Of a DNA stretch of 64,000 nucleotides, positions 31,636-48,000 are shown piece after piece. This stretch comes from Tetradesmus obliquus (Eukaryota; Chlorophyta; Chlorophyceae; Sphaeropleales; Scenedesmaceae). Location: NCBI GenBank assembly GCA_030272155.1, contig CP126195.1:6059001-6123000 (forward strand), given 5' to 3'. The stretch's first letter is position 1. Every line of letters begins with the position of its first letter. The notes below the pieces were generated by a model that worked only from the letters and a program-made list of their open reading frames with translations, was not told where the DNA came from and did no database searches. The translations under genes were made by a program, and so were the position numbers.

Positions 31636-32067
31636 TCATCCCAGCTTCCTCTGAATCAGGTCGCGGCTCCAGGCATCAGCCATCAGCGCCATCACGCGCC
31701 ACAGCGGCAGCAGCGCCTGGCGCTTGCTGCGCTGCTCAGCGCGCCAGCGGCCTAACGCCTCCAGCTCCATTGCCAGCACCTGGCAGCAGCAGCAGCAGCA
31801 GTGAGGCAAGCATGCAGGGGTTGGCAAATAAGCACGGGTGCCCCTCAGCGGCCCAACGCCTGCAGCTCCATCGCCAGCACCTGGCAGCAGCAGCAGCAGC
31901 TGCAGCAGCAGCAGCAGCAGCAGTGAGGTGCGCATGCAGGGGTCGATGATAAGCACGGGTGCTGCGCAGTGCCAGGGGTCCCCGGCCGCTCGAGCTCCGC
32001 TGACACCACCACAGCACCAAACACAACACAGCGCTACAAGCACGCACCTGCTGCGCGTAGCCGCCCG

Positions 32068-32103
<36 letters not shown>

Positions 32104-32326
32104 ATCGCTCCTGGAGCCAGGCCTTGCGGTTGTAGCTGCTCCTGAACAGCCACAGCGTGGTGTTGACCAGCGAGGCGGGCCCTAGCCCAGTCAGCTGCGC
32201 TGCAATGGGAGTGCTGGCAGCAGCAGCAGCACGCAGCGCTGCCTGCAGCGGCTGCTGTGCTAAAAGGTGCTCTGTGAGTTTGGACGCCACGTGGAAGTCG
32301 ACTGCTGCCAGGGGGATGTCATCCCT

Positions 32327-32359
<33 letters not shown>

Positions 32360-35300
32360 GCAGCGGCAGCAGGTATTGCTCGACAAGGTTGCAACAGGCG
32401 GTGCGGCAGGTCTGCTAGAGTGCAGCCGTAGTGCATGGATGCATCACATCACCAGCAGCTGGCATGGATCCTGACGCTGTTATTTGGTATCAACAGGGCA
32501 GCAACAGCAGCAGCGCTGCGGGGTTTGCGGATCTGCTCAAATGTTCTCACCGTATGAGTGGGCCCACCAGCATGACGCTGGCGGCTGGTGCTGCTGCGGG
32601 GTTTGCGGATCTGCTCAGGCCCTCCCATAAGTCCTGCAAGGCACACATTGAGCAACGTACACATTGTACGTACACAGTGGACCCACAGGATCAGTGCAAT
32701 AATAGCAGCGTCCAAGGTCAAAAGAAGCAGATGATTCTGCTGACAAGCAGTTTGTACCCTCTGGCCTGCGTTTGAGGCCAGACACAGGCCTCGCAGCATT
32801 GACAGCTGTCCAAACTGCTTCCACACTTCAGCAATTGCCGGGGCCCAGGAGTGCCACAGCAGCTGCAGGAGCCCATAAGCTATGCTGTACATGTAACGCC
32901 TCACCAAGCCAACACCACGCAAGGTACACTTTGCTGCTTGCTTGCTGGTGTGTCTATCTCTCACACCAGTGAGCAAGTCCAATGACCACATAATGCATGC
33001 AGCAGGATGCAGCAGCAGCCCCTACGCCGCACCTGGTAGGCTGTCCTGAGCAACACCAGCCAGGGGCTGACAGCAGCAGGCAGCCCCTCACTGCTGGCAG
33101 GGCCCTTGCGCCCAGCAAGACTGCTGGCCACCTGCTGCCGCTGCTGCTGCTGCTGGGGAGAGCCCTGCTCTTTCTGCTGCTGCTGCTGCCGCTGCTGCAT
33201 GTCTTGCTGCTGTTGGTGCTGGCCTCCTGGTGCTGGTTGCCCTGCACCCTGCTGCTGCTGATGCTGCTGGGGCAGATCTGGCGGCAGCTGTGCCATGCCG
33301 CTAAACCTCGCCAGCCACAGCCCGCTAAACCGCAGCAGCATCTCCTTGTCCCCATCCATGCCGCCGTATGCTGCGCGGATCAGCATGGCGCGCACCAGCA
33401 GCGCTTCAGGGCTGTTGGGCGGCAGCAGCGCATCAACTGCCTGCCAGGTGCGTGGGGCCTGGTAGACCGCTGCAGCGCACGACAGATACAGTGCAAGGCA
33501 GAAAGACAGGAGTTTTGCGAACGTGGTGCAAGCGAAATGCAGGATGTGTACTGCAGCACAGCAGGTGGGAAGCATGCACGCGGGGCCTGGTCGACAGCTG
33601 CAGCGCTTGGCAGCAAGACAGAAGCACAGAAAACAGGCGGGCTTCGGGGGGCTGCCGGGCGGCAGCAGCACAACTAATGCCTGCCAGGTGCGTGGGGCCT
33701 GGTAGACCGCTGCAGCAAGGCAATATGGCAGTAATACAGACACGAGATGTGCCGAGGTGGTGCAGGAGGTTAAATGGGATGCAGGTTGTGTGCTGCAGCA
33801 GAGGAGGCGACAGCGTGCGCGTGGGGCCTGGTAGACCGCTGCAACTCACAACATACACACGGCAGGGCAGAGAGAACTGCTGTGGCGCAACAGGTGCAGT
33901 GAAATGCGTGAGATGTGCTGCAGCACAAAAAATGAAATGCAGGTGCGCGGGGTGGAAAGAAAACACAATACACACAAACACGCACCTGCAGCTGGCCCCC
34001 GCACTGCGTCTGCATCAGGCAGGAAGTCCCGCCACTCCACCGCTGCCATTTGGTATGTAATGGCCAGCAGCGCGTTGGCCAGGCTGCCGCCCAGCACATA
34101 GCCCTTGCCCTGCAGGGCAGCAGCAGCAGCAGAAAAAGAAGCAGAATAGCGAAAACCGCATTGGAGCAACAATGCACCAAGCAGAGCATACAACAGTAGA
34201 CACTGCACCAGAGAAAACCACCTTGCAGCGCTGCTCCCTTTGCTGCTGAGCTGCGTGCGCAATTAGCAGGCAATTATAAACGGCCGGGGACGTTGCTCAC
34301 TCACCCTCGCCTGCATGGCCCCGACCACCAGCGGCAGCTGGGCGAACACCCCTTCGCACAAGTTCATGCCTGCGCGCTGCTACTGCCAACATCCACTATT
34401 ACTGCCACTCTTGCTGTCGCTCATCGTTGCCAGCATGGCCCACACCACCAGCGGCAGCTGCGCCAACACCCCTTTGCACAAGTACATGCCTGCGCGCTGC
34501 TACTGCCAACATCCACTAACACTGCCACTCTTGTTGTCACTCACCGCCGCCAGCATGGCCCATGCCACCAGCGGCAGCTGCGCCAACACCCGCTTCCACA
34601 GGCTCACGCCAGCACGCTACTGCCAACATCCACTAACACTGCCACTCTTGTTGTCACTCACCGTTGCCAGCATGGCCCACACCACCAGCGGCAGCTGCAC
34701 CAACACCCGCTTCCACAGGCTCACGCCAGCACGCTACTGCCAACATCCACTAACACTGCCACTCTTGTTGTCACTCACCGTTGCCAGCATGGCCCATGCC
34801 ACCAGCGGCAGCTGCGCCAACACCCGCTTCCACAGGCTCACGCCAGCACGCTACTGCCAACATCCACTAACACTGCCACTCTTGTTGTCACTCACCGTTG
34901 CCAGCATGGCCCACACCACCAGCGGCAGCTGCACCAACACCCGCTTCCACAGGCTCACGCCAGCACGCTACTGCCAACATCCACTAACACTGCCACTCTT
35001 GTTGTCACTCACCGTTGCCAGCATGGCCCACGCCACCAGCGGCAGCTGCACCAACACCCGCTTCCACAGGCTCACGCCAGCACGCTACTGCCAACATCCA
35101 CTAACACTGCCACTCTTGTTGTCACTCACCGTTGCCAGCATGGCCCACACCACCAGCGGCAGCTGCGCCAACACCCGCTCGCACAAGCGCACGCCAGCGC
35201 CCTGCTACTGCCAACATCCTATTATAAATTTTTACGGCCACCTTGTTGTCACTCACCGTAGCCAGCATAGTCCACACCACCAGCGGCAGCTGCGGGTGCA

Positions 35301-36081
35301 GCAGGCCATCCTCCAGGCAGATGATGCACAGCCGCCGCAACAGCGCCTCAAGGCCGGCTGGGTCCTTGAGCAAATACAGCGCCAGCCTGCGGCGGCGGCA
35401 GCAATCGAAGCAGCAGCAGCATAGTTTCAAGACTGTCAAGGAATTGTTGACGGCAAAGCGACCTTCAGACTTGGCGGGCATTGATTCGCCTCACAACCGG
35501 CTGGGTCCTTGAGCAGATACAGCGCCAGCCTGCAGGCAAGCAACACAGAAGATTATATAAGAGACACTTTCAAACTTGACTGACTTTGGTTCAGCTGGCG
35601 CCTCACAGCCGGGTGGGTCCTTCAGCAGGTACAGTGCCAGGCTGCGGGGCAGCAGCAGCAGCAACAGCAACAGCAAGAATAGCAGCAGCAGCAGCAGCAG
35701 CAGGGTTCACGGTTGTCAAAGGATTGATCAGGCGAGGCCTACAGACTTGGCTGGCAGTGGTCCACCTTGCTCCTTGCAGCCGGCTAGATCTTTGAGCAGG
35801 CACAGTGCCAGCCTGCAGTTCACACCAGCACACCAGCTCGCAGCAGGCATGCAATCGATCAGTGCCTTGGAGCGCCCCTTACCGTGTAGCGCTGGCCGCC
35901 TGTCCCCTCCTGATGCACTTCTGCAGCGCACTGATGAGCACCGAGTGGCCTCCCCGCCAGCGCACTGCTGGCTCGCTGCTGCTGCTGCTGCTGCTATGGT
36001 TGCCGGCTGCTGCTGCTTGAGCCTGTGCACCACCAGCGTTTAGGCTGCCAGCGTCAGCTATGGCAACATGTACCTGCTGAC

Positions 36082-36122
<41 letters not shown>

Positions 36123-37170
36123 CCTTCAGGCCTGTGGTTGCTAGGCAGCTGCTCGTTACTCCAATCAACAGCAGCTCCAAAGCCGGAAGGTAGGTTGGTG
36201 GCAACCTGCAACCGCAGCTTGGTTGAACCATTGGGTATATCCGGCGCTTCGCTGCTGCTGCTGCTGCTGCCGCCTGCTGCTGCTGCCTGCTTTGGTATGG
36301 TTGCATTGATTGTGGCGCTCCATGCTGCTGTGAGGCCTTCCAAGGGGCAAGGGCTGCCTGCGTAACACAACATAAACCATGCTGATGTGATCCATGTGGC
36401 GACGATGTGCTAACTTCAAGTCCATAATGTGATGCAGTGGCAGACTCCCCTTGTTCCGTAACAGCGCGAATGACAGTTGTCAGCGGCTGCACAACATTGC
36501 ACGCCACAAAATGCTGCATGCATCTGATCCACCTTCACTCCACCAGTGTCAGGCCCAGCTGCTATTACTACTGCAACAAAAACACTACACGCAACACATT
36601 GCTGCATGCAGCTGCACAACCCCACCTTCACTCCACCAGTGGCAGACCCAGCTGCCATTACTGCTGCAGCGACCACACTGCACGCAACACATTGCTGCAC
36701 GCAGGTGCACAACCCCACTCTGTCATCCATTAGTGGCAGACCCAGCTGCCACTGCTGCTGCAACAACCACACTGCGCACTACACACTGCTGCACGCAGCT
36801 GACCCACCTTCGCACCGCCAACAGCAGGCCCAGCTGCCATCGCTGCTGCAACAACAACATTGCACGCAACAAACTGCTGCACTCTTGACATACAGTTGCC
36901 AAGCATTTGTATGTACTTGACTGAACAAGTACCAGAGAACATCAGCCACCACGCGATTTGTTGCAGCTGGCCTACCTTCACTCCACCAGTGGCAGACCCA
37001 GCTGCCGTCGATGCGTCCCTCTAGGAACAGTGTGGCCTCCAGAGGCACCTGCGCTGCCTGCGCTGCTGCCATGATGGCAAACGCATTCGGCGCTGCTGCC
37101 ACTTCTGCTGCTGCTGAACCTGCACTCCTGCTGCCTTGCGCAGGGGGTGGCTTGCTTGCTGATGCATAGC

Positions 37171-37207
<37 letters not shown>

Positions 37208-37760
37208 TGCTGCAGGTATGGGGTTGCTTGCTGTGGCAGGCTGAGCGCTCCTGCTGCCTGCCCTGGCACTGCCAGAAGTTCCTGCAAGGCCCGCAGCTGC
37301 AGCTGCAGCTGGGGTTGCTGCTGTTGCAGGGGTTGCTGGGGTGGGCCTTTGACTGGGTTTCACCAGGCAGTCTGATGCATGCAGCTCTATGAATGCCTTG
37401 GGCACAGACAGGCCACAGACAGGGCAGGTGGCATACTTCTCCTGCAAGCGGAACAGCCCACGCAGCAGCAGCAAGCGCTCATGCGCTCTGGCTGGATTGG
37501 CCTTGCAGCAGCTGTGTGCATAGCTCCAGTGACATTACACAGCTGGTTGGAGAGTTCAGGGCGAGTGGCACTGCAGTTGACGTGAGGCACAGGAAGGACC
37601 AGCAGCACTGCTGCAGATGAGCAGCAAGGGCAGAGAGCCATACCTGCTGATCTGAGGATGCCCTACGTTTCCTGCCTGACTGCTTTTGGCTCTGGCTGAA
37701 CTTAAGCCCACCGCTTTTCAGGAGATCAAAGGCGTTCTGGCTTGGCGTGGGTTGGGTCAT
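31636..37760 (-). CDS. Conserved protein of unknown function with UBZ4/RAD18-type zinc finger
   Basis: Exons (5' to 3'): 37760-37644, 37441-36976, 36357-35883, 35386-35257, 34109-33986, 33469-33033, 32633-32551, 32324-32048, 31779-31636; 2253 nt, 750 residues, every junction in phase. Near residues 44-63 a C-X2-C-X11-H-X3-C motif (CPVCGLS...LHASDC) matches UBZ4 fingers, which bind ubiquitin in DNA-repair proteins such as RAD18 and WRNIP1. A basic GRKRR cluster before it could be a nuclear signal. Two NAF-type motifs (NAFDLL, NAFAIM) flank the finger. Later conserved-looking blocks are SALQKCIRRG, LLRRLCIICLEDGLLHP and LAAVDFHV. The SALQK...CLEDG part faintly resembles the C-terminal domain of MgsA/WRNIP1, but no AAA+ ATPase domain is present. 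I do not recognise the family. Nearly all its introns contain tandem copies of adjacent exon edges. Confidence 0.75.
31780..31960 (-). repeat. Copies of the last-exon 5' edge of the UBZ4 gene in the preceding intron
   Basis: The acceptor and first ~35 nt of the exon starting at 31779 (minus-strand GTGCTGGC, then ATGGAGCTGGAGG) recur at about 31848-31890, with the same acceptor context (GCCAG before GTGCTGGCGATGGAGC). A shorter remnant follows near 31960. The intervening CAG runs belong to the intron. Confidence 0.75.
32505..32545 (-). repeat. Copy of an internal fragment of exon 7 of the UBZ4 gene
   Basis: GGGGTTTGCGGATCTGCTCA (+ strand) occurs at 32520-32539 and again at 32599-32618 inside the 83-nt exon 32551-32633. 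The first lies just past the donor, in the downstream intron. Confidence 0.8.
33575..33848 (-). repeat. Copies of exon-6 5' edge (with acceptor) of the UBZ4 gene
   Basis: The exon starting at 33469 begins CGGTCTACCAGGCCCCACGC on the - strand after a TGCAG acceptor. Near-identical copies with the acceptor lie at about 33680-33714 and 33815-33842, and a diverged one at about 33577-33605, all in the upstream intron. Adjacent intron sequence is repeated with them, giving a unit of roughly 100-240 bp. Confidence 0.85.
34311..35262 (-). repeat. Eight-copy 117-120-bp tandem array of an exon 3' edge plus splice donor
   Basis: Copies begin at 34311, 34431, 34551, 34668, 34785, 34902, 35019 and 35136; the parent exon's own copy is at 35263. 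On the - strand each unit holds a version of the last 33 nt of the exon 35386-35257 (encoding LPLVVWAMLAT; the exon has T for A), followed in most copies by the intact donor GTGAGTGAC and then intron sequence. Upstream of the 33 nt each unit has GCGCAG or GTGCAG, a possible acceptor. The array fills the intron between exons 4 and 5 of the UBZ4 gene. Confidence 0.95.
35490..35820 (-). repeat. Three copies of exon-4 5' edge (with acceptor) of the UBZ4 gene
   Basis: The exon starting at 35386 encodes (R)LALYLLKDPAG after a GCAG acceptor. Copies lie at about 35495-35528, 35607-35640 and 35780-35813 (+ strand GGCTGGGTCCTTGAGCA and variants), and each keeps a CAG acceptor. Their translations are LALYLLKDPAG, LALYLLKDPPG and LALCLLKDLAG, so they have drifted only slightly. 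Confidence 0.9.
36529..36850 (-). repeat. Four copies of exon-2 3' edge (with donor) of the UBZ4 gene
   Basis: The exon ending at 36976 finishes with codons for SWVCHWWSE. Its last ~35 nt plus the donor recur at about 36529, 36622, 36711 and 36803, spaced about 91 bp, in the downstream intron. Three copies keep GAAG-GTG at the donor; the one at 36711 has lost it. Confidence 0.88.
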
Positions 37761-38571
37761 CACAGAGGCAGTTGTGCTTGCATGTTCCCTCACACAGATA
37801 CGTGCAGCCCTGGGATGCAATCAAAGCAGCATCTACGAATTTGTAATAATGGCTGTTCATGGTGTCTGATGCGACCAGTGTGTGACCACGACGTTAACAA
37901 TGACGTTCCTCGTGCCAGGGACCCCGGCACATTCACGTTCTTGAGAGAACTCGTAAGAGTGGATGCATTAGCCAACGACTGTCCAGCAGTACAGAAAACA
38001 CATGTACAAAGCATCAAGGACTTCCCTTGTTTCTGTTATCCCTGAAGGGGGAAGCCAGCCTGGCAGCCTGGCTGTCCACCAGCAGGCTGCAGCAGCCTGC
38101 CCGGCAGCCAGTTCAATGAGGCTCTGAGGATGTAAAAGCCCTGACCAAGCCTAAGTAGGTTTGAACCAATGCTAATGTGCGGTGACAGGCACTGGTCAAG
38201 CTGGCTATGCCTCATCAGGGCTCTTCCCCTCAGCGCCTGACCTCAGGTCATGACCTCCTGATCAGGATCAGGCTGGTCGTAGAACAGCAGTGGGTGGCAA
38301 TCCAGCGGGTCCCAACACAGGTTGCACAGTAGACCAGGCCGCAACAACTAGGCATGACACTGCGCACGACAGGCATGCACAGGTTGTTTTTCTGGGATGG
38401 TGGCGAGCACAGTTGAGTTGAACGGAGAAGAGCAGAGTGAGGTTCCCCCCATCGTTGCAGCAGCCAATGCCACCCCGACCACATTAAGCAAGCCAAGCTG
38501 AATCTTGTTGCAAATAAAAACATGGTGATCGTGAAGCAGCTCCGAAACATGAGGCAGCAGAATAAATGTTC
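37761..38571. other. Upstream of the UBZ4 gene; no gene recognised
   Basis: This 0.8-kb gap lies between the UBZ4 start codon and the tRNA-Gly gene. The part next to 37760 should hold the promoter. No other structure is seen. Confidence 0.5.
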
Positions 38572-38642
38572 TGCGCTCGCCGGGAATCGAACCCGGGCCT
38601 GGTCCGTGGCAGGGACCTATCATACCACTAGACTACGAGCGC
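38572..38642 (-). tRNA. tRNA-Gly (GCC), copy 1
   Basis: A full cloverleaf folds on the - strand: acceptor stem GCGCTCG/CGAGCGC, D-arm with AGTCTAGTGG as A box, anticodon stem GGTCC/GGACC around loop CTGCCAC (anticodon GCC), and T-arm with B box GGTTCGATTCC. It has no intron and no encoded CCA. Two identical copies lie in the Dicer intron. Confidence 0.96.
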
Positions 38643-39493: not shown

Positions 39494-39695
39494 CTAGCTG
39501 CCACCGCCATGCTGCTGGTTGCCAGGTAGCTGCAGCAGCCGCTGCACCGCACCCCACACCTCCTGCCAGGCATGCTCGCCCCGGCCCACTCCGCGTGCCA
39601 TACTGTCCACATACACAGCCCCAATGGTGCTCTCAACCAGATCAGCAACAACCTTGGGAGCCCTCAGCGGCTTCCTGCGAGGCACCTTGTCATCC

Positions 39696-39731
<36 letters not shown>

Positions 39732-40895
39732 TCGGGCCCTGCTGCTGCCTGGTCTGTTTGCTGTGTGGTGCTGCCAGTCCCATTAGCGCTGACGCTATTG
39801 CCGCTTGCATTGGCTGCATCAGCAGCCGCTGTTGATTTCCGCGGTGCTGCCCACACATCCTGCCAGATCTTCCTGCAGTTGTTGCTCCAATGCACGCCAG
39901 GCGCAACCTCTTGAAGCAGCTGCTGCAGCGCTTGCTCCCGCTGCTGCTCACTCTCTGCCTGCCGATCTGCTGCTGCCGCATCCGGCTCCATGCCTGCCGC
40001 AGCTGCTGCCTGCGCATCTGCAAAGCGCCTGGCAGCGCGCTCCAGCTGGCTGCTGCGCGCCTGCAGGTGCTGCTGCAGGCCTGCTGCTGCTGCGGCGCGG
40101 CCCAGGTGTGTGTTGTTGACCAGTGCTGCTCTGCGCCAGCTCAGCTCCGCAGGGGCGTAGGCCGCGGCACTGCTGCACAGCATGCAACGCGGTGCAGAGC
40201 AGTGTATCGCAGTTCATTGCATCGCATTGCATTGCATTGCATTGCATTGATTGCACTGCATTGCATTGCATGGCATAGCATGGCATCAGAACAAGAGCAA
40301 ACTGCAGTTGCCTGGCAGGACTCTTTGACTGGCTGAGCTGTCGTGTGCAATGGCACTGGTGTGCAATGGAGGCAATCGCAGCTGCAGCGCCACGGCACAA
40401 TACCACCAGTTATCCAGTTATTGCCCCTCTTCTAAACTAGAGAGGGGGAAGGTGGGTCCCGCAAAGGTGTGGATGTAAGCAGCCACCATCCCTTCCCAGC
40501 CCACACCATCCCGTCACTGACCTGCCACCTGCCGCCGCCAGCTGCTGTGCTGTGCGCTGCACCAGCCAGCCAGACACAGCCAGATCCAGCAGCGCATCAC
40601 CAAGGGACTCAACTCGGGTGCACAACAAAGAAAGTCGAGCATGCACAATGATAGTGGAGCATGCACAGGCGCCCACAGCCCAGCCCACACAACCCCATGC
40701 CGCCTCACCTGCCACCTGCAGCCGCCAGCGTTGCCGCAGTCTGCTGCATCAGCCAGCCAGACACAGCCAGGTCCAGCAGCGCATCACCCAGGAACTCCAG
40801 CCGCTGGTAGCTCTGGCAGCCAAACACAGACACGTGCCGCAGCGCCTGGGCCAGCAGGCTGGGGTCATCAAAGCTGTGGCCCAGACTCTGCTGCA

Positions 40896-40927
<32 letters not shown>

Positions 40928-42985
40928 TGCTGTTGTTGAGGCGCTGGTGGCAGCAGGGCGTGCAGTGGCGGTGTGGCGGCTGTTGCAGCGGAGCCTGCGG
41001 CAGCGAGGCAGACAAATCAACAGTGTGAGAGCAGAGATGCACATGCAAAGCAATGCTTGAAGGTGCGAAGCTTTGCATCTTTCATGCTAGACTGTCCATA
41101 CATGCTGGCAGTGCTACTCGTGGGGATGTGTGCATCTATCAGATACGGCAGCTGCCAGAGCGCTCGGCATTGCATCATGCAAAATGCATGCAAGGAATAA
41201 GGCACATGTATGGCTTGTTGAATGTATGTTGCCTGTACCAATGCACACCCCTCACAGGAAGCAGACGACAAAGCAGCACAGGTTCAGGTGAGCCATGTAC
41301 ACATCAAACCCCAGATGCCTCGTCGCCAGATTGTTGTGAATTTGGCGTACTGCATATTTTTCCTGGGCGAGGCATGCATGCCCGGAGACCCTGCATGCTG
41401 CGCACCTGGTGGCAGCACGCCAATTGCTTCACAGAAGGCCGCTGCCGCTGCCAAGCCCCGCTCTGACACAGGCATGCTACTGCCGCTGCTGCCGGCCATC
41501 ACCCCTTGCATCGCTGCACTGCCTGCGGAGCCAGAGGCGCCATTTGGTGCTGCTGCTGCTGCTGCTGTCAGGTAGACTGCCCCAATCAGTGCCTCCACAC
41601 CATCTGCCAGCCGCTTCCCTTTTTCCTGCCGCTCACAGGACTGTGGCCGCCGCAGCCCCACAGCCCATCTGCCACTGCTGCTGCTGCTGCTGCTGCTGCC
41701 AGGGTATGCGCCAGTAGGCGTGTAGGCATCTGCACAGTGAGCCACACTGCTGAAAGGCAGCAGCAGCATGTGGCGGTCCAGCTGCAGCTGTGAGCTGTGG
41801 CCTTGTGCCCTGCGGGCCAGCTCTACGTTGCGCACCAGTGTCGCTTTTTGCACTGACAGCTCGCCCTCATTTGCGTCTGCAGGGTTGGCCTGCAGGGTGA
41901 ATTGGTAAATTAGGTGGCAGCAGCAGCAGCAGCCATGTCAGCAGCAGCAGGAGCAACAGGAGCAAAGATGCTGTGGCTGTTTTCATTGCACTGTGTTTGT
42001 GGGTGCAAGCAGCTGCACATACCAGGCTGCTTCACCGTGTGGAGCTGAACTGCACACCACAAGTCACTGCAACCGCACTTCACACTCAAGTTCACACCTG
42101 CAGGGTGTAGTTCGTCGCCAGGAACTTCAGCACGACATCCCCCAGGAACTCCAGGCCCTCCAGGTCATACGCCTCCTTAGCAGCAGCACCAGTCAGTGAC
42201 ACCACCAGCAGCGGCAGCGGCGGCACTGGGAAACCACTGCTGCTGCTGCTAGTGGTGTGGCCAGAATCTGCAGCTGCTGCTGCTGCAGATGATTTTGCTG
42301 CTAGATCTGTCAGGTGCTGCTGCATGCGGCTTGCGCGCAGCAGGCTGTTGATGCGGTGCATGAACACCGGCAGCAGCTGCAGCTGCGACCATTGCGTAGC
42401 CGTCAGCGGCAGCAGCCAGCAGAGCTCTAGGGGCAGGTATGCCTGGCGCTGCTGTTCTGAATCAGACTCATCAATGTCCATTGCCTCTGAATCTGATCCT
42501 GCATCTGCATCTGCATCTGCGGCTGCTGCTGCCGCTGCTGCTGCTTGATCAGTGCTGCCAATGTGGTTGCCTCCATTGCCCCCTGACACCAGCCCAAACG
42601 GCCGCTTGCTGCCTGGAGACACCTGCCGCTGCTGGGCAGGTCTTACCAGATGCATGGCTTCACCCTGCTGCTGGTGCTGCTGCTGCTGCTGCTGCCAGCC
42701 GCTGAACGTTACCGCTGCTGCTGCGGCCTCAGGTGTGGTCAGGTCCTCTGGTGTAGCTGAGCCTGTCCTGCGCCCCAGGTTCTGCAGCTGCGGCGGATTA
42801 AGTGGGTATGACAGCAGCCCTAAACCCTTGCGCCAGCCCTGACCAGCCACCTTGAGCATTGCCAGGTCACCCCTAAGCCCTGTGACGTTATAACGCTGTT
42901 TGAAATACTCTGCATGGCTGCTGGGACTGTCTGGATGCTTGCGACCTGCAGGTGCTGCAGCTGGCTCTGCTATGGGACCGTTGTT

Positions 42986-43044
<59 letters not shown>

Positions 43045-43425
43045 ACCAAGTGAACTCGCAAGGTGTGCTGGGAGTAACATTGCTGTCAATGCCTGTGCAG
43101 CGGTACACCATGCTGCTGTGGCCTGCAAGCAGCACCCTGTCCTGCAGTAGCTGCTCTGCCTGCAGCACTTGACTAGCAATCAGCTGCTCAGGCGCCGCAG
43201 CAAGTGCTGCTGCTCCTGCAGCAGCAGTAGTGTTTGTGCCAGCGCTGGTCAAGTCAGCGCCAAACAGTGCTGCTGCTGGCTTCAAGCCTTCTGCCATGCT
43301 CTGTATGGCCTGCCAGTTGATGCCTGCACCTTGCTGCTGCTGCTGCTGCTGCAGTGGGGCAAACAAGTAAGCCACCTCCGCACCAGCCAGCACACGAGCT
43401 GCCTCTGCCTCTGCTACTGCACCTT

Positions 43426-43456
<31 letters not shown>

Positions 43457-43607
43457 GCTGCTGCTGCTAGTTGTGCTTGCCAGTGCTGCAGCCAGTGCTG
43501 CTGGAAGGCTGCTTATTGCGGCACCAGGTGCTTGCCAGAAGCCCGCCCTTTGCTGGAATTGCTGCGGGTTGAGTGGCCGGGCTTGGTCCAGCCTGGCCTG
43601 TTCAGGC

Positions 43608-43652
<45 letters not shown>

Positions 43653-45021
43653 ACTGAGCTGTCACCAGTGATCTGGCCGCGCATGCCTAGCAGGCGCTGC
43701 AGGGCTCAGAGGTTTATGGGGATTTGAACGCCCATGGGCCGACAGATGTGCAGGCAGCAGAGCCAAAACATATGCATGCAGCGCACAGTATTGTGGAGAC
43801 AGAATAGAGTGGGTGACATCCACCTGATTTGAAGTGGATTGGTTTCCAAACACGAGTGTGCTGCATGCTGAGCAAGGGGTATACAGCGGGTTCTGTTATC
43901 ATTGGTTTGGTTTGTGCCAGCAACACATGAACGGTGCTTGCGCTTATCCTGCAAGCGGTCAAATCCGCGGCGCCCGGTTGCCTTTTGCAGCCGGTCGACT
44001 GTATGATGCGAGGCTCAGCAGATCAACAACTTGTTGGGTGAACGCATGCAGCAGGTGTCTGCTGTGGTGCATCACACAAGACCCACCCAGGATGGCAGAC
44101 GCCAGTCCCTTCACGCCCTAGATGAATCCAGAATGCAGCGTTACCAACGCAGCCTGTAGGCTCAGTGCATGCCGCAGTTCTCCCGCATTGCATACTGGGT
44201 TTGCCACAGAAACGACACAATAGGTTGATCCCTCCACGTACAACACAGAATGCACAACCACACAACGCACACAGTGCTAGCCACCAACCACATCACGGCC
44301 GCCTCACCCTGCTACTCAACGCAAAGTGCACAAGCACACAACACAAACAGTGCTTGCCACCACATCACAGCACTGCCTCACCTTGCTGCTCCAGTTGAGC
44401 AGGCTGTGCAGCACTTGCTGGTAGTGCAGCAGCTGCAGCAGCTGCACGGCTGTCAGCTGCACTGACCCCTGGTAGCCTGGCGACACCTGGCAGAGAAAAG
44501 CAGCAAGCAGCCAACAGCGGCAGCAGCAGCAGCAATCGGAGCTGTGTCTGCAGCTAAGTGCAGAGTGTGCTGTTGCTGGATGTGGTGAGGACTGAATGAA
44601 ATGTGCCTGATACAAAAAGCATTGGTGCTGATACAAAAAGCATTGGTGCTGCTGGGGCCAGGGTTGCAGCAAGCCCCAGGCATCCCCGTATGAAGATAAG
44701 CTACATACAAACTATGTAGTCTGTTTGTACAGTTTCAGTGCTGCTTCCACTATGGGCGCAGCATTTGCAACACGCACCTTGTGTGGCTGCTGCTGGTCCT
44801 GGTGCTGCCAAGCCGGCCACGCCAGCTGCTGCCCAGCAGGCAGCTGCTCCCACAGCAGCACGCCAAACTCCAAGCTGCTGCTGATGTTGCTGCTGCTGCT
44901 GCTGCTGCCGTTGATTCCGCTGCTGATGTTGCCACTGCTGGTGCCAGGAACGGCAGCGCAGCGCGCCGCAGATCCCACCGCCATGTTCAGCAACCCAAAA
45001 ATATGTGCATCACGCTGCTGC

Positions 45022-45080
<59 letters not shown>

Positions 45081-48000
45081 GTCGCTGCTGTTGCCACAAC
45101 AGCTGAAGCTGTACATGTGCAGTGTGATCTTCCCGCCTGGCCGTGTGAAGTTCACGGTCCTGGGTGCCAGGGGGCCCTCCAGAGTGAAGCTGTAGCTGAA
45201 GGCAGGGGTGGGCTCAGCCTCTGCATTGGCAGCAGCAACAGCAGCAGCATCCACACTCGCCCCAACCTGCATGGCAACGCAATTGCCTTGCAATCCAGAA
45301 CTACTAGTAGCTGCTGCCGTGTGCACGGCTAGCCGTAGCCAAGCCAACCGCTTGCAGCCCTGCATCAATGCGTCAGCCCTCCACAGGACTCGCAGTTGTG
45401 CAGGTGCGCAGCGTGTCCCTTGGACAACAACTATCGTGTGCGAAAAAGAAAACATCTTGCATCGCCTGATGCCGTGCTCACCCAGCTGGCGCCCGCGCCT
45501 GCTGCTGTCCCAGCTGGGCTGCGCTGACCGGGCCCACCACTAGCTTGCATGGCAACGTTAAACCTATGCACGGAAACTGAGTGGGCCCACCACGAGCAGA
45601 GTGTCACTGTCCTGTACATAGCAAAGTGCTGCGTCTGCCTGCTGACGCCTGCTGCCTGCCGCACCCACCCAGCTGCCGGACGCGCCTGCTGCTGCCCCAG
45701 CTGGGCTGCAGCCATCCATCCAGCTTCTTCACCTCCAGCAGCCGCCGCAGCGCAGCCAGCGCTGCTGCATTCTTGGCCGTCTTGCTGTTGCTGTGGAAAT
45801 CGGAGGTGATGGGCTGCAGCAGCACGGCAGCACGTGCGGAGTTGGTTAGGCCGTTGTGCGTGCATTGTAAGGACCTGCAGACAGCAAACCTTGCCAGAGC
45901 ACAGTGCACCATGATGCACACTCGCATGCCTAGATGGGGCCCCCGCCATCATGGCATCGTGCCGTCACAGGAGGTCAACACAGACTGGATGTGACTGTCA
46001 GCTGTCACGTGCACATCACGTTGTCTGTCACATGCACAACACGCAGTGCTGCTCAAGCCAACATTGCAAGAAATAGTCAAACACGCCCAGTGCCACGCTT
46101 GGTGCCGCGCCAAGTACAGCAGACTGTGTTCTTATGCTGATTGATGCACACCAGGAGAACAAGGCGTCACCAACAAAGCTGGATGCGCTTGAACTTGTTC
46201 ACAAAACCTGTGCACATCTTGGGCCACGTAGGCGTGCAGCGCTCACCTCAGTGATGCCGCTGTTGCTGGGCAAGTAGATGGTTGTCTGGAACAGGGGACC
46301 TGCAAACGCTTGTGTGCTGTAGTATGCCTGCAGCAGCACTGTCCTGCAAGGTAAGAAAGCAAAGCGACACGGCAGCAAGGTTGTGGCAGGCCTACCATCA
46401 AGAGTTACGACATGCAGCACTAGCGTCCACAAGGTGCTGAACAAAACAGCTTGCCAGTGTTTTGTGCACCACACAGATGTGCAAATTGGCTCCCAAAACT
46501 ACCACACCCAAATAAAAGCCCAGAACCCTGGATGTGACATGCGCAAAACCCTTATATGCCGCAAGAGCTGCGCTCGCCGGGAATCGAACCCGGGCCTGGT
46601 CCGTGGCAGGGACCTATCATACCACTAGACTACGAGCGCTGCTTGCTGGTGACATGAAAGAAACTTCAGCAGGCCAGCTTTCCAACGCCTGCACTGACTC
46701 GACAGCTGCTCCCCGGCGCGATCAGCAGCAGCATGCGATCGTCTCACGCCTTCTTTAGTGAGAGAGAGAGAGAGAGGGAATATCGCGTCGTCCATGGCCG
46801 TCCCCAGCCACCACACCGTCACCATCCCGAATCTTCGGCGGCCCGTCATCCGCGAGGAGAAGGACCCACTGAGCCCCGTGCGGGACGGCCTGCCGTCCGT
46901 GCCGTTCACCGCGATGCTGCAGGGCAGCCTCGGGCTCGGCAAGACAACGGCCATGGTCGAGCTGGTGACGCTCCTCGACCAGGGGCACTCCATCGATAAA
47001 ATATTCTACTTCAGTCCGACGGCACAGCTCGACGGCAAGGCCAAGCTTCTCATCGAGGGCGGCCATCGATACGAAATCGAGACGTTCGAGGACCTTACCG
47101 TCGCCAACTGGTCGGCGTGCGTGGACCAGACCAAGGCCGTCCTGCAAAAGTGGCGCGAATACAAGCGCCTCGCCAAGATCTGGCGCCGGTTCGAGGCGGC
47201 GCACTTCAACCCGGACCGCCTCGCGTTCGATGAGGCGCTCGAGCTATACGAGCGCGACTTTCAGCCGCCGGAGCCCCTGTACCCGCACGGCATGACGCCC
47301 AGCTTCCTGTTTCTCTTCGACGACCTCATCGGTAACGCCATCCTCTGCCGTCCCAATCCAAGGGGAGACTTCGCAAAGTGGTGGCTGATGAGCCGCCACC
47401 TCAAGACGAGCATCCTCGTCTGCAGCCAGGTCTTCCAGGGCGGCCTCTCGAAGCAGCTACGAGCCAATTGCAACGTCTTCGTGTTGCTTGCCAACAACTC
47501 ACTTCTGGGGTGAGTCTCCTTGAGTGACAGCCTGTTTTGCTGAGTCGTCTGCGGCGTTCCAGTTTTTCGGGTGTTCGTTGCAACGTAGTTGCCTGTGCAC
47601 ACCGTGTAACCCCTCTTCTTCTTCTGCGCGATCGGGTTCTCATAATATGTGAGCTGAAAGAGGGGCAAGTGACTCGCTCTAGGGGAGTTTCACTTTGGTT
47701 GCATCTTGTGGCTTGCTATCGGGTTCTCGTGATATGTGAGCTGAAAGAGGGGCAAGTGACGCGCTTTAGGGCGATAGCTTGCCCACCCCTGTAACAGACC
47801 TCTCTCAGGGCGATAGCTTGCCCACCCCTGTAACAGACCTCTCTCGCGCGACCACTCTCTCACGCGACACACCTCTCCCCGGCGCGGCGTAATGAAACCG
47901 CACCCGCTATGCTGCCCCCTATCACAAGACGCCCCTGTAGCAGACCTCTCTGACACCACCTGGTGCTTCAAGCAGCGTCAATCTCAGCTACTTGCAGCTT

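Follow-up and report, generated by a model that had tools for sequence, protein, structure and literature searches.

Host gene and array

The window analysed here is a stretch of 64,000 nt of Tetradesmus obliquus DNA (assembly GCA_030272155.1, contig CP126195.1, positions 6,059,001 to 6,123,000 of the forward strand), and its minus strand carries a gene that we modelled by hand, all of its introns being GT-AG and its phases consistent. In this gene the end of exon 4 recurs eight times in the intron that follows it, and the features are given below in window coordinates.

31636..37760, minus strand: host gene, hand model of nine exons and 750 aa, with open frame and consistent phases
37760-37644, 37441-36976, 36357-35883, 35386-35257, 34109-33986, minus strand: host exons 1-5
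33469-33033, 32633-32551, 32324-32048, 31779-31636, minus strand: host exons 6-9
35257..35386, minus strand: exon 4, from the open-frame model and phases, its junction kept in three homologous proteins
34110..35256, minus strand: intron 4 of the model, 1147 nt, containing the array, with junction peptides conserved in homologues
35289-35257, minus strand: true exon end, the last 33 nt of exon 4 and source of the array (unit table)
34305..35162, minus strand: eight copies of the 33-nt exon end with donor region, spaced 117-120 nt (TRF and unit table)
35162, 35045, 34928, 34811, 34694, 34577, 34457, 34337, minus strand: starts of copies 1-8, each running 33 nt downward
34425..34457, minus strand: copy 7, donor lost (ATGAGC)
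34305..34337, minus strand: copy 8, the most diverged and farthest from the exon, reading LPLVVGAMQAR

The name "UBZ4-finger protein" used in the original prediction agrees with the database name (UBZ4-type) of the T. obliquus homologue OEZ85_003222, but a Pfam search of the host protein found no domain. Identity is 88% over the searched region to a protein of Scenedesmus sp. NREL 46B-D3, 91% to OEZ85_003222 and 47% to a Trebouxia protein. In these three annotated proteins, which are gene models, the peptide LPL.VW.M.A. is present once and is joined directly to the peptide of the next exon, with MPL at its start in Trebouxia. Since both near relatives and the array read WAM where the exon here reads WTM, the array units may preserve an older version of exon 4. 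The OEZ85_003222 protein model also repeats ERYQ...GGYAQQ, the end of exon 8, which occurs once in the model here, and a strain-specific exon-edge duplication may have entered that model.

On the minus strand, exon 4 reads ...CTGCCGCTGGTGGTGTGGACTATGCTGGCTACG up to 35257, ends in phase 0 according to the gene model, and is followed by its real donor, GTGAGT, starting at 35256. Run on the window, TRF reported a tandem array at 34292-35294 (period 117, 8.4 copies, 91% matches, score 1492), which together with the unit table bears out the original reading of eight tandem exon-end copies in one intron. The spacing is 127 nt from the exon end to copy 1, then 117 nt five times, then 120 and 120 nt. 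By unit alignment, a unit holds 38 exonic nt, the donor and about 80-90 intronic nt, and it straddles one splice site with exon and intron sequence both inside. Successive copies have flanks homologous along the unit (flank test p 0.007 for edge 35257). The first 38 nt of copy 1 match the exon at 92% and its flanks at about 74%, a difference that tells against an inert array, although selection acts on the exon itself. By eye, the flank past copy 8 resembles that of the real exon (GGCCG...TTTATAAT), which fits a plain tandem duplication.

The 33-nt part is followed by GTGAGT in seven of the eight copies and by ATGAGC in copy 7, in agreement with the donor predicted for most copies. The 6 nt before it are GCGCAG in copies 1, 4, 6 and 7 and GTGCAG in copies 2, 3 and 5, as predicted, and GCCCAG in copy 8. 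The peptide LPLVVWAMLAT, which had been placed in every unit, is in phase 0 as stated but is exact in four copies (1, 3, 5 and 7), the others reading LPLVAWAMLAT (2 and 4), LPLVAWAMLAA (6) or the copy 8 sequence listed above. Whole units of copies 1-5 are near-identical in the unit alignment, and a recent expansion, as in the youth originally ascribed to the array, is plausible. Alternating variants common to units 3-4 and 5-6 (GTGCAG with V, GCGCAG with A) suggest that the array expanded pairwise.

Further edges of the host gene, namely the exon-2 end and the exon-4, exon-6 and exon-9 starts, also have copies in their adjoining introns, and one copy lies in a neighbouring gene.

36519..37005, minus strand: intron 2, copies of the exon-2 end (GGCAGCTGGGTCTGCCACTGGTGGAGTGAAG, donor edge), five including the exon
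35487..35816, minus strand: intron 3, three copies of the exon-4 start with acceptor, identity 91, 83 and 74%
33578..33875, minus strand: intron 5, three copies of the exon-6 start (CTGCAG/CGGTCTACCAGGCCCC), identity 68, 61 and 84%
31846..31883, minus strand: intron 8, one copy of the exon-9 start, 38 nt, 92%
40495..40610, minus strand: neighbouring RNase III-like gene, exon-end copy downstream of the exon, 82% over 120 nt

Identity drops with distance from the exon in intron 3, though not in intron 5. The intron-3 edge copy seems to be present also in another strain's assembly and to be annotated there as exon, since AGAVPAQGPARLRGESMPA in the T. obliquus protein model resembles an out-of-frame reading of the copy here, AGAVSAQGPSRL*GESMPA. 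The neighbouring gene, at 39494-46795 on the minus strand, has two RNase III-like stretches and is one that we take to be RNase III/Dicer-like, and a tRNA-like sequence with an anticodon that by eye is apparently GCC (Gly) lies at 38570-38640 on the same strand.

Splice signals of the array units

We regard the array, with high confidence, as an inert intronic satellite that arose by a straddling duplication and grew by unequal exchange, the outermost donor being spliced and the copies drifting. This explanation draws on the observed sequence of the array, the drift of the copies, their frequency in a genome sample and the single peptide in the homologues; how intron 4 is spliced and how the duplication came about are what we infer from these. 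A duplication of ~120 nt of DNA across the end of exon 4 would have tandem-copied the donor together with ~38 nt of exon before it and ~80-90 nt of intron after it, and later unequal exchange would have enlarged the array, in which units 3-4 and 5-6 resemble a repeated pair. The spliceosome would join the outermost, real donor at 35256 to the real acceptor at 34110, so that the mRNA would be unchanged and the copies could drift. The same kind of event would have taken place at other exon edges of this gene and of the genome.

The original prediction had also proposed that any unit could be spliced in as an in-frame microexon, giving a variable 11-residue repeat. The layout of the units suits such a role, with phase 0, 33 nt, an AG before the cassette in eight of eight copies and a GT after it in seven, and a straddling duplication did make a spliced intron and exon in the potato RNA-dependent RNA polymerase (RdRp) gene (PMC4974935). 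Our own gene finder also called five copies as 33-nt exons and placed a 72-nt exon over copy 8, so the splice signals of the array are not wholly dead. The AG before each unit is explained by the exon codons CCG CAG that were taken into the duplicated unit. By PWM score, the acceptors of the copies lie at the 0th to 20th percentile of predicted acceptors, and their upstream pyrimidine content is 36-44% compared to 56-80% at the gene's eight real acceptors. The real acceptor at 31779 is also weak (7th percentile), and copies 2, 3 and 5, at the 20th percentile, lie above one real acceptor of the host gene, which favours their use. The donors of seven of the eight copies fall at the 40th to 53rd percentile of predicted donors, and the real donor at the 53rd. 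Splicing of a unit would need 84-nt introns, and introns of 84 nt or less are nearly absent (2 of 278 predicted introns, where the predictor accepted introns of at least 60 nt).

Over all eight copies the exon part differs less than the rest of the unit (7.8% against 17.5%), but within copies 1-6 it is not the better preserved, with a mean pairwise difference of 5.5% against 3.8% in the rest. Two of its four variable sites in copies 1-6 alter the peptide (V/A and T/A), which varies among the copies, and these comparisons give no coding constraint on the cassette. The single peptide in the three homologues, the mostly weak acceptors, the rarity of short introns and the drift of the copies led us to reject microexon function as the main reading, and the sequences make it unlikely that any unit is spliced into the mRNA more than rarely. 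The other possibility that had been raised, an inert by-product of a boundary-crossing duplication, is supported, and many other edges have copies of this kind.

About equally unlikely is a decoy role, in which the repeated donors, themselves unspliced, would bind U1 and tune the efficiency or timing of intron 4 splicing. Seven GTGAGT donors of similar strength do lie behind the real one, but the copies show no sign of selection, and edge copies are present in many unrelated genes. The array also poses a splicing question, that of the choice of one donor with seven similar ones behind it.

Exon-edge copies across the genome

The genome was sampled at twenty 10-kb loci over seven contigs, and sixteen of these were used. 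The excluded loci were L004, L007 and L021, mostly made up of a 312-bp satellite in arrays (variants of 335-374 bp also occur) that may be centromeric or subtelomeric, and L005 (C2:500001-510000), which is N throughout. Local duplicate pairs are frequent in the sampled loci, and many of those inspected by eye include a splice site, as in an acetyl-CoA synthetase gene (MLYTSGSTGKPKGVLHTTG/GTGCGC). Exon edges were taken from our home-made gene finder (splice profiles CAG/GTGAG and TGCAG/G; 52 genes, 258 introns), which returned seven of the nine hand exons of the host gene exactly and had that hand model among its training data in every round. Before counting, 20 predicted exons that were edge copies were dropped from the training sample, leaving 238 introns, and eight were dropped in the replicate. 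False host-gene exons remained at 36845-36808, 36663-36626, 34376-34305 and 31880-31845, so a few of the edges counted there are array copies, and counts without the window are given as well. Pfam backs five other gene models that were used; of two transporter models, one lies just above the curated cut-off and one below it.

For search windows of 40 nt starting 50 to 30 nt inside the exon, 9-13% of edges had a copy within the neighbouring intron, compared to 2% at 110 nt inside the exon, 2-6% in the first intron windows and 0.08% among 2481 null comparisons. With a stricter score, a copy in the adjoining intron was found for 66 of 539 predicted exon edges, while a control in which introns were exchanged between loci gave 0 of 10,780. 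The training sample contributed 53 of 462 edges (43 of 357 without the window), and a replicate of four new loci, scored with the frozen model, 13 of 77, ten of the 13 in one gene. The window itself accounts for 10 of 105 edges; outside it the count was 56 of 434, and 12 of 20 loci there held at least one edge copy. The offset was 90-160 nt in 40 of the 66 copies. Hits are clustered, with L011, L014, L019, L020 and L027 holding 46 of the 56 outside the window, and genes differ strongly, from 10 of 20 edges in the CWC22 gene to 0 of 36 at L015 (chi-square 161, 46 d.f., p 9e-15); edge duplications are thus very uneven, taking half of the edges in some genes and none in others of similar size. 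When the CWC22 exons were compared with solved spliceosome proteins, one alignment crossed three of the duplicated edges with no insertion.

Blast returned 68 duplicate pairs at offsets up to 400 nt: 30 at an edge, 19 with both arms in predicted exon, 12 outside genes, 5 intron-only and 2 joining exon interior to intron, where random placement gives.239 for edge,.406 for both arms,.238 for intron-only and.116 for interior. Since similarity fades sooner in flanks than in exon parts, the excess of edge over intron-only pairs need not mark a hot spot at exon edges, and we claim none. Similar units also expand within coding sequence, as a 114-bp tandem repeat at L009:7844-8399 lies in frame within a predicted exon (38-aa repeat LAQVTKPGKPKEAKVADAASISFKRLEKGYAVQSQGRK). 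At L016:1488-1708, the end of the acetyl-CoA synthetase coding sequence, as far as the stop codon, recurs immediately downstream with 95% identity over 81 nt and all four differences at third codon positions, so stop-codon edges may be exposed to the duplication process too.

A flank test of the 44 copies with enough flank gave 17 with homologous intron flanks, which are plain tandem duplications of the array type (class I), 25 without, which share the exon part and splice signal only (class II), and two between. Flank loss was equally common at high exon identity (9 of 14 copies at 0.93 or above, 16 of 30 below), which disfavours simple decay as the cause of the missing homology. Clear class II copies with no detectable flank match are L020:9258 (98% over 47 nt), L011:1200 (98% over 42 nt) and L027:8312 (96% over 53 nt), and by eye the flank at L011 is common to two intronic copies and differs from that of the exon. 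The class II label of L016:4595 is doubtful, as the flank test used its second copy and the flank of the first is homologous by eye.

The two classes also differ in where exon and copy disagree. Differences at codon positions 1:2:3 numbered 17:17:24 in class I (15 pairs) and 14:24:76 in class II (24 pairs), with three pairs between (p 0.002 for the difference). Two pairs, L020:8733 in a doubtful gene and L016:1628 at a stop-codon end rather than a donor, were dropped from these tallies; with them, class I reads 25:20:33. Without the window, class I reads 10:12:17 and class II is unchanged (p 0.014). The third-position bias of class II is stronger than any that even mutation would produce where an exon is constrained and its copy neutral (p 0.0002), so that one version looks as if it came from a diverged allele, a pattern to be expected had the two versions diverged as coding alleles before they became adjoined. 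Part of it could be imitated by third-position mutational bias, by paralogues, for instance of the transporter-type genes at L019 and L020, by haplotype-chimeric assembly or by fast intron turnover.

In the 18 edge families with at least two copies, changes in a single copy were distributed over codon positions as 62:47:69 and changes unique to the exon as 20:11:30 (60:47:69 and 18:10:27 minus two array families). As the copy-private changes are about even, the copies are, by this measure, drifting while the exons are held by selection. A splice signal above the 10th percentile of predicted sites is kept on the edge side in 22 of 29 donor and 26 of 41 acceptor copies. On the far side, 9 of 29 and 9 of 41 copies have the opposite signal, where random positions give 13.5% and 12.1%. 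This is about twice the random rate, a point in favour of spliced units to which the array itself contributes, but the signal is absent in 20 of 29 and 32 of 41, and being found in a minority it suggests that the sampled copies are mostly not complete microexons. Functional alternative edges are disfavoured in general by the spread of copy-private changes over codon positions and by offsets with no bias to multiples of three (remainders 0:1:2 of 6:2:7 in class I and 10:10:4 in class II).

An assembly artefact from collapsed or chimeric haplotypes is very improbable. In principle, copies whose flanks are not homologous could have arisen where two haplotypes were joined into a chimera, but the copies carry private changes, those in intron 3 decay stepwise (those in intron 5 do not) and one of them is apparently visible in another strain's annotation, and edge copies occur in 12 of 20 sampled loci outside the window. 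A mobile, introner-like element with splice signals is scarcely credible and was rejected for the three stretches searched: inspection by eye of some cases showed a GT at the start or an AG at the end of the spacer between exon and copy, but the duplicated stretches derive from the adjoining exon, and the array, a spacer of L020 and a copy region of L016 each matched only themselves in the 104.66-Mb genome, with no dispersed near-identical family found at the search's sensitivity.

Origin of the copies and comparison with known systems

The structures of both classes would fit one break-repair process, and they suggest copying from a sister or from a diverged homologue, the template being inferred. 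We put this forward tentatively, as a possibility that falls short of being probable. After a break near an exon edge, one broken end would invade a homologous exon, synthesis would cross the splice site for roughly 90-160 nt, and the new end would then be joined to the other side. With the sister as template, the product would be a plain tandem duplication, as in class I and the array. With a diverged homologue, an exon end and a foreign intron start would be placed ahead of the old exon end, giving class II, in which similarity would stop at the splice junction, differences would be biased to third codon positions and the intron flank would be unrelated. With repeated rounds introns would grow, and earlier versions of the exon would stay behind in them as a fossil series.

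If this is true, exon-edge break repair could help to explain why introns in these algae are long. Excerpts of a comparative study of Chlamydomonas (PMC8226300) describe, for a related algal group, intron lengths that do not form the usual 60-110-bp peak and leave the driving mechanism open, a question on which edge copies bear. In the sample, such copies lie beside about one predicted edge in eight, even in well-conserved genes (the CWC22 splicing factor, acetyl-CoA synthetase), and they mislead our gene finder and probably the published annotation too. With the exon as a conserved ruler, they may also make the history of intron growth readable.

Our search of the open-access full-text literature found, among the matches listed, no report of widespread exon-edge duplication in a green alga. 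Introners resemble the copies in being splice-signal-bearing sequences that alter introns (excerpts of PMC9860276), and differ in that no dispersed family was found here for the three stretches searched. In Rogers-type intron gain, as outlined in excerpts of PMC4974935, tandem duplication of an exon segment containing AGGT yields a new intron. The array likewise is a tandem duplication around a splice motif, but its units consist of an upstream exon end and pre-existing intron, and an intron was lengthened while none was created; by eye, the exon-5 start (GGCAAGGGCTATGTG) was not found in the units, which in this differ from the Rogers type.

Vertebrate repair-mediated duplications, according to excerpts of PMC2671141, capture proximal DNA and yield closely linked copies that measure 50 to 619 bp and are explained there by synthesis-dependent strand annealing; some duplicate splice sites, and in two cases a duplicated exon was without coding constraint. 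The array unit of 117-127 nt and the sampled offsets of 43-467 nt fall within that range and are linked copies. In human, 4 of 824 donors were partial exon/intron (PMC2671141), and here 66 of 539 edges have copies, counts that differ in method and are not directly comparable.

Short duplications that straddle a splice site are known as single cases, and the nearest of these is the potato RdRp gene, where, in the excerpts of PMC4974935, the copy made by a straddling tandem duplication is spliced, adding an intron and an exon that RNA reads support. Both there and here, a short tandem duplication across an intron-exon boundary carried a splice signal along. The algal case differs in that eight units lie in one intron, that no added peptide appears in the homologues' annotated proteins and that dozens of other sampled edges are affected. 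The array is real, it is probably inert, and taken alone it is an instance of something already known; what makes it interesting is how often edge copies occur and that in one class of them similarity ends at the splice junction.
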